In this document: one piece after another, positions 45,649 through 46,280 of the stretch
Numbering within the stretch: the first letter of the stretch is position 1
How the letters are laid out: each line of letters opens with the position of its first letter
Assembly: GCF_003003775.1 (NCBI RefSeq)
Contig: NZ_PVWJ01000024.1
Span: 1-47,231, forward strand
DNA from: Merismopedia glauca CCAP 1448/3
GTDB taxonomy: Bacteria > Cyanobacteriota > Cyanobacteriia > Cyanobacteriales > CCAP-1448
Direction: 5' to 3'
DNA length: 47,231 bases
The notes under the pieces: model-generated
What the model saw: the letters and a program-made list of their open reading frames with translations, nothing else
Databases searched by the model: none
What the model was told of the DNA's origin: nothing
Position numbers and translations under genes: made by a program

Positions 45649-45707
45649 GACTAAAACCGAAAAACTTGTTAACTCAAAATACTTCTATTTACTCAAGGAA
45701 ATTTAAA

Positions 45708-45748
45708 AACTTACAGCAATCTAGCTTTAAACTAGATTGCTGTAAGTT
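45708..45748. terminator. 17-bp perfect hairpin downstream of hemD
   Basis: AACTTACAGCAATCTAG (45708-45724), CTTTAAA, CTAGATTGCTGTAAGTT (45732-45748). It lies between the convergent hemD and small secreted peptide genes and may end both transcripts. The following bases are not T-rich on either strand, so it may instead be a dispersed palindrome. Confidence 0.6.
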
Positions 45749-45814
45749 AATCCAGATGAATTTAAAGTTTCAAATAGCAGTTATTTTCATAAAAACTAAT
45801 GACCTAATTTCATC

Positions 45815-46063
45815 TTAGTGGCGACGGAAACGACAAACTTTTCTGACGACATAAAAATATCTACCGTGTTTAAAAACTCGAACTCTCTTAAAGAAGCAAC
45901 GGCGCTTACCATGAGCTTTATCTAAGTTTTGTTCGTGATATCCTTGGGTAGAATATTGGTCATCAAACTTGGGAGAATCGCCAGCCAAAGCGGGAATAGT
46001 AGCTACTGAAGCTAAAGTTGTTGCCGCTAATGTCATACCTAAAACAAGTTGTTTGATTTTCAT
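45815..46063 (-). CDS. Small secreted cationic protein with two cysteines
   Basis: An 82-residue precursor. The signal peptide (MKIKQLVLGMTLAATTLASV, ending IPALA) predicts cleavage after residue 27. The mature 55 residues have a hydrophilic part (28-50) and a very basic C-terminal segment. Residues 53-82 contain 13 Lys/Arg and no acidic residue, with Cys56 and Cys77 bracketing alternating aromatic and basic residues (CFFKRVRVFKHGRYFYVVRK, then VCRFRRH). This pattern suggests a disulfide-closed beta-hairpin. AGGAG before the ATG supports expression. I do not recognise the family; it could be an antimicrobial-like peptide, a polyanion-binding protein or an outer-layer component. Confidence 0.75.
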   Translation of the reverse strand: MKIKQLVLGMTLAATTLASVATIPALAGDSPKFDDQYSTQGYHEQNLDKAHGKRRCFFKRVRVFKHGRYFYVVRKVCRFRRH

Positions 46064-46280
46064 GAGATAGTCTCCTAAATAGTAAATTGATTTACACTCG
46101 GTGATTTTTTTCGATTGAATCTAATCTAACTTATGATTTTTCAAATGTCACTAGTAAATTGGTAAAGAAAAGATAAAATTTTAAAATAGATCTGCTTAAA
46201 ATTGTTTTCCAAAATATATCTATCAACCCAGTTTAATGCCGAAAAATCAGTGAAATTAGTTAAATGAGGTTAATGTACGA
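46064..46280. other. 217-bp divergent intergenic region, AT-rich
   Basis: Between the cationic peptide gene and coaE. It holds the AGGAG ribosome binding site of the peptide gene (46071-46075) and long AT-rich runs. No ORF or repeat is recognisable. Confidence 0.4.

Follow-up and report, generated by a model that had tools for sequence, protein, structure and literature searches.

A putative family of small exported, cysteine-clasped basic proteins in cyanobacteria

What could be the task of a very small gene that is squeezed between the genes for HemD and CoaE in the cyanobacterium Merismopedia glauca CCAP 1448/3, and whose product appears to be exported, strongly basic and equipped with just two cysteines? 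The gene is located in a stretch of 47,231 nucleotides (positions 1 to 47,231 of contig NZ_PVWJ01000024.1, called the window in the following) and occupies positions 45815..46063 of the minus strand. An uninterrupted frame of 82 residues runs there from the ATG at 46063-46061 to the stop codon at 45817-45815, and the plus strand contains stops in that frame. A Shine-Dalgarno-like AGGAG, read from the sequence, is present 8 nt upstream of the ATG (46072..46076, minus strand), and a terminator-like hairpin of 19 pairs with a run of T follows 67 nt past the stop codon (45708..45748, minus strand). On the strand of the gene, the region 45705-45760 folds with -26.4 kcal/mol compared to a mean of -7.7 for shuffled sequences (z -8.4), and a strong hairpin is also formed on the opposite strand, toward the end of hemD. 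The HemD gene (PF02602) ends 167 nt past the stop codon and faces the precursor gene, and the CoaE gene (PF01121) starts 217 nt beyond its start in the opposite direction. These orientations, together with the hairpin between the precursor gene and HemD, show the gene to be a one-gene unit. The original prediction had noted that no transporter or immunity gene is adjacent, and this agrees with our view of the region: the neighbors are HemD and CoaE, followed beyond HemD by a ZnuA-type metal-uptake gene at a distance of 1.2 kb, and no immunity, modification, peptidase-transporter or dedicated export gene was seen in the flanks.

The precursor is composed of MKIKQLVLGMTLAATTLASVATIPALA, followed by a spacer of 24 residues and a basic core of 31 residues carrying C56 and C77. 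The N-terminal part represents a putative Sec signal peptide (residues 1-27; 45983..46063, minus strand), as judged by inspection from a hydrophobic segment and the sequence A25-L26-A27 ahead of G28, which is compatible with signal peptidase I; cleavage would be expected after A27. This region is also conserved among the relatives in an alignment of eight proteins, in line with the signal peptide proposed before. The spacer (residues 28-51; 45911..45982, minus strand) contains 2 Lys/Arg, 5 Asp/Glu and 2 His residues. The core (residues 52-82; 45818..45910, minus strand) contains the codons for C56 at 45896..45898 and for C77 at 45833..45835 (both minus strand), which are 21 positions apart with 20 residues between them, and the last 30 residues of the protein comprise 13 Lys/Arg, no Asp/Glu and 2 His. 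The cationic C-terminus with two cysteines described in the original prediction is therefore correct.

As judged from sequence similarity, the gene belongs to a small cyanobacterial protein family with distant relatives in other cyanobacteria. A protein search in 100 related genomes yielded matches in only two, namely the genome of M. glauca itself and that of Cyanosarcina radialis HA8281-LM2, which belongs to the same taxonomic family (G001, contig JAHHHA010000027.1; E 4.3e-10) and whose protein is related over its full length and shows signal, spacer and core in matching order. Identity between the two proteins amounts to 40% in a BLASTP alignment containing 6 gaps, to 50% in a MAFFT alignment and to 51% in the genome protein search. 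A profile built from these two rows matched 15 of the 388 genomes of the order at E 0.1 and revealed two further copies of the gene in the M. glauca genome (G000, contigs C43 and C148), as well as a tandem trio of relatives in Cyanosarcina. Later profiles, one of which matched 21 of the 388 genomes at E 0.05, added family members from G003 and G360, and then from G671. A widened core profile matched nine of the 217 genomes from the family of G360 at E 0.001; cysteine-bearing members were read there from G360, G671, G685 (two), G690, G722 and G804, the hits L096 and L098 lie outside the members read, and two hits (G757, G773) come from genomes in which the one hit read (L097) is devoid of cysteines. 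Across the phylum, four of 386 genomes were matched at E 0.02, with accepted members only in the M. glauca genome, and a further profile search gave matches in 8 of 388 genomes. Hits in G209, G332, G425, G271 and G380, three of which hold a stop, were left out of the reading. The hits at E 0.1 or E 0.05 outside of G000, G001, G003 and G360 mostly covered the signal region only or contained stops and were dropped. Among the weak hits, L003, L024, L026 and L032 were opened, and no credible family gene was found in L003, L024 and L032; L004, L005, L007-L015, L025, L027-L031, L033-L040 and L042 were left aside. A scan of genome contigs with the single protein gave no relative, and plasmid and phage records showed no similarity at E 1, both approaches reaching close relatives only.

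The two cysteines are the most consistent feature of the family. Only M1, P24, A27, C56 and C77 are invariant in the alignment of eight proteins, and the two cysteines represent the sole invariant columns in an alignment of eight core segments. The conservation of both residues, which had been suggested as a check of the original prediction, is thus confirmed in the relatives. Each of the 15 complete cysteine-bearing members read contains two cysteines and no more, with a distance of 16 to 36 residues between them. This count partly reflects selection, because the profiles already included the cysteines and the script picking the members required them. The cores of all 15 members are net basic, with 8-14 Lys/Arg, 0-2 Asp/Glu (two acidic residues being present in L017) and 6-10 aromatic residues. 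They also contain 2-6 His residues, whose positions vary across the alignment of eight proteins; a C-terminal His is present in all seven members from M. glauca and Cyanosarcina. The spacer of the window protein has a charge balance of -3, compared to +3 for the trio from Cyanosarcina and +2 for one paralogue, and the core is basic throughout. The acidic spacer recognized earlier is therefore a property of the window protein and not of the family, and the idea that it masks the charge of the core does not agree with this range of values. Pairwise dN/dS values within the tandem trio are 0.134, 0.14 and 0.096; they apply to these relatives of the window gene only, and the range of 0.10-0.14 indicates that the protein sequence has been kept by purifying selection. 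With its putative signal peptide, spacer, basic core and terminal cysteines, the window protein itself appears to carry all of the features by which the family is defined.

The likeness of the core to a beta-hairpin, as proposed originally, is supported by structure prediction. AlphaFold2 models based on two sequences, those of the window and the Cyanosarcina protein, predict strands at residues 54-65 and 68-79 of the window protein, connected by a turn at H66-G67 and placing C56 opposite C77. If residues i and 133-i are taken as partners, the pairs would be C56-C77, F57-V76, V61-V72, V63-F70, K59-R74 and K65-R68. The mean pLDDT of the window model is 87 in residues 61-70, with 24 residues between 70 and 90 and none reaching 90, and it falls below 50 in residues 25-49, rendering signal and spacer unreliable. 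The Cyanosarcina protein is predicted with strands at 47-57, 60-62, 65-67 and 70-80, and 25 of its residues have a pLDDT of at least 90. Mean values over the whole models are low (58.1 and 63.7 for the window and Cyanosarcina proteins, with pTM values of 0.28 and 0.31). A further argument comes from the arms of the putative hairpin, i.e., the distances from the first cysteine to the turn glycine and from there to the second cysteine, which are 12+10 in the window protein, 15+13 in the Cyanosarcina protein, 20+18 in L017 and 10+8 in L019. The difference is constant at 2 in these four members, and since both arms lengthen in step, a hairpin with paired cysteines gains support. The rule holds strictly in four of the ten proteins measured, the exceptions being the trio (16+13, difference 3), L006 and L055 (17+18, difference -1) and L023 (15+18, difference -3), and the glycine closest to the center of the ring was taken as turn glycine, a choice that favors symmetry. 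Taken as a prediction, a beta-hairpin between C56 and C77 is supported. A fold search against the PDB returned 97 matches at E 10, the best at E 1.5 and none at 0.001, a lone hairpin being uninformative in such a search.

A separate group of members is formed by the Nostoc-type proteins, whose core reads C-x-x-R-R-V-Y-H-K-G-Y-Y-S-R-R-F-G-x-V-G-R-R-Q-Y-H-P-G-Y-Y-T-T-K-R-V-C or nearly so and contains one Y-H-x-G-Y-Y motif per strand. All eight of them (L006, L055, L023, L091, L093, L094, L095 and L099) show the residues L-I-A a few positions before the first cysteine, which would possibly represent a second cleavage site or the start of a strand. The core profile also matches the cysteine-less L097 (RVWVAGHYQ...RRWVPGHW) at E 3.5e-5, and L026, a weak match in the profile search at E 0.05, contains long repeats resembling those of L097. 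Both L026 (1483-1866) and L097 (1315-1608) appear as exported repeat proteins of the type R-R-x-W-V-x-G-H-Y without cysteine. L026 also scores 22.1 bits against NCBIfam model TIGR04260 (GrrA/OscA1 RiPP), below the cut-off of 31. On the basis of these motifs, a common origin of the Nostoc-type members and the cysteine-less repeat proteins appears plausible.

None of the reference collections contained the family. No Pfam model scored above its cut-off for the window protein and its relatives, the best one for the window protein being PF21020 with 15.1 bits against a required 24.2, and no NCBIfam model, including those for bacteriocins, reached its cut-off for the family proteins scanned. Searches of P0001 and P0002 with PADLOC and PHROGs gave nothing convincing, apart from two weak PHROGs matches of P0002 (E 0.17 and 0.38), and sequence searches of the PDB yielded one weak unrelated match (E 0.6) and none to solved hairpin peptides at E 10. 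PF12779 was not reported for the window protein (E 10), nine relatives (E 1), L026 or L097; it matched none of six genomes in a search at genome level, in which the control genomes were equally empty. The cysteine-clasped hairpin family is thus absent from Pfam, NCBIfam, PHROGs, PADLOC and the PDB as searched, and no publication on it was found in literature searches. This is in accord with the unknown family stated in the original prediction: as no curated family was matched, there was also no sign of homology to an established structural family that would assign another function to the protein. Since the family is missing from these libraries, its members are likely to be labelled as hypothetical proteins.

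Inspection by eye of ten regions around family members, in which a small number of genes was tested, together with the window and L002, revealed no gene common across the subfamilies; the neighbors common to L102 and L103, and to L100 and L107, are explained by the close relationship of these members. An ABC-type transporter is encoded within about 3 kb of the member in both G671 (L100) and G360 (L107), as seen by eye. Frames resembling a sulfatase and a formylglycine-generating enzyme adjoin the member of G671 (L100 5229-7623), and another formylglycine-generating-enzyme-like frame lies alongside the Cyanosarcina trio (L106 3257-3895), all recognized by eye; such frames were unseen in the other regions inspected in the same way. 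One paralogue from M. glauca (L019, contig 148) has a plasmid replication gene of the RepL type (PF05732, E 3.3e-44) at a distance of 411 nt, and this contig may represent a plasmid. A weak phage-integrase-like frame (E 0.025) is also present near L019.

A potential promoter element, AANTTTKCGGAA-N17-GTA, occurs in three family promoters (L002 1430-1462, L017 and L018; with one mismatch in the trio) at -65 to -71 relative to the start codon, as counted from CGGAA, and is not present in the promoter of the window gene. Its counts against those of the reversed control are 18/0 in G000, 10/10 in G001, 11/3 in G003, 15/17 in G360, 24/16 in G671, 9/8 in G005 and 10/8 in G017, and it is regarded as a lead only. 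The element was also observed upstream of two frames for membrane proteins of 38 and 31 amino acids in G001 (exact in L068, with one mismatch in L082). Its assignment to the hormogonium J-Box of SigJ promoters was rejected, as the J-Box is given as GGGaAtacT (PMC6495340). The promoters of the window gene (at about -65) and of L019 (at about -47) have TTAGATTAGATTCA in common, the best match covering 16 of 20 bases compared to 14-15 in shuffled sequences.

Our proposal for the function is a tentative one, to which we assign slightly less than an even chance: the gene may code for a small Sec-exported protein, a cationic hairpin clasped by a disulfide, which would serve a structural or protective function at the anionic envelope or sheath. 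Export via Sec and signal cleavage would yield a mature protein of about 55 residues, whose basic C-terminal 31 residues are predicted to form one antiparallel beta-hairpin. A putative disulfide between C56 and C77, formed in the oxidising periplasm, would close the base of the hairpin, and the spacer upstream of it is probably flexible. Lys/Arg, Tyr and Phe residues on both faces may then hold anionic surface polymers, with LPS, sheath or exopolysaccharide and peptidoglycan as candidate ligands. A stand-alone surface protein would fit the observations, because no neighbor is common across the subfamilies, and the apparent one-gene units, the purifying selection, the lack of immunity or transporter genes by the window gene and the variable ring size make us lean toward a surface-binding or structural role.

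The main rival of this envelope-binding role is an antimicrobial one, which we regard as possible, yet on the unlikely side. The protein would then be the precursor of a secreted peptide, and its hairpin, possibly after release from the spacer, would perturb the membranes of competing bacteria in the manner of the single-disulfide hairpin peptides of animals. The predicted basic, aromatic and disulfide-capable hairpin of 31 residues agrees with such a function, as do the ring of 16-36 residues and the presence of several copies per genome, including a tandem trio. Plasmid linkage is common for bacteriocins, and the copy 411 nt from a RepL-type gene, the multiple copies and the possible second cleavage site at L-I-A ahead of the Nostoc-type core keep this explanation alive. 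However, no immunity, modification or peptidase-transporter gene was seen next to the window gene, no neighbor common across the subfamilies was seen by eye, and the dN/dS values of the trio indicate constraint rather than diversification. Moreover, neither a sequence match to solved hairpin peptides nor an NCBIfam bacteriocin model at its cut-off was obtained. A more far-reaching version, in which cyanobacteria produce Sec-exported single-disulfide hairpins that act like the animal antimicrobial ones, enlarge or shrink their ring through insertions that match between the two strands, and are partly plasmid-borne, is considered quite improbable. An origin of the family as a cysteine-closed offshoot of exported R-x-W-V-x-G-H-Y/W repeat proteins, forming periplasmic hairpins of possibly structural or stress-related function, is likewise judged unlikely: the two near-copies of R-x-Y-H-x-G-Y-Y in the Nostoc-type members, one per strand, and the match of the core profile to L097, with the similar L026, speak for it, but PF12779 was reported neither for the family proteins scanned nor for L026 and L097, the match to L097 could result from low-complexity basic composition, and the G-H-Y parts are lost in the window protein.

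Two further explanations receive far less credit. The cysteines, the 2-6 His residues of the core and the ZnuA-type gene 1.2 kb away might indicate a periplasmic protein with a metal- or redox-related role, but HemD intervenes, the other family loci lack such a neighbor as judged by eye, and the His positions are not invariant. Cysteines facing each other across a predicted hairpin in an oxidising compartment would rather point to a disulfide, and we consider a metal- or redox-related role very improbable. A chance open reading frame, for which the short length and the missing family match might be quoted, has a practically negligible probability in view of the full-length relative at E 4.3e-10, the ribosome-binding site, the terminator and the purifying selection in the relatives. 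It was rejected, since the relatives keep both cysteines and the order of signal, spacer and core, and since the trio is under purifying selection.

If the hairpin and the disulfide of the proposed envelope protein are real, they would represent a very small and genetically simple exported fold, the length of which is varied in step on both strands, and would offer a tractable case of how basic proteins are loaded by cyanobacteria onto an envelope or sheath of negative charge. If the antimicrobial alternative is right, the family would be a bacterial counterpart of the animal hairpin peptides.

A comparison with known systems reveals partial resemblances. The bacteriocins of Gram-negative bacteria and cyanobacteria include a class with double-glycine leaders, whose members are small, exported and multicopy like those of the family described here; in contrast, the window protein has a putative Sec-type signal, no peptidase-transporter or immunity gene was seen adjoining it, and it shows neither the leader nor the adjacent modification, transporter and immunity genes that characterize double-glycine or RiPP bacteriocins. 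The WXXGXW or YXWxxGHW proteins (PF12779) are also short and exported and contain strands of the V-x-G-H-Y/W type, two of which are found in the Nostoc-type members, whereas the hairpin of the family appears to be clamped by two cysteines and the window protein is devoid of a G-H-Y motif. Single-disulfide beta-hairpin antimicrobial peptides are known from animals, as represented by the arenicin, tachyplesin and protegrin groups. The family differs from these in its bacterial origin, in the lack of sequence similarity to solved examples and in a ring varying from 16 to 36 residues, while the window protein has the charge and the cysteines of such peptides and is predicted to share with them an exported, basic and aromatic hairpin closed by a Cys-Cys bond.
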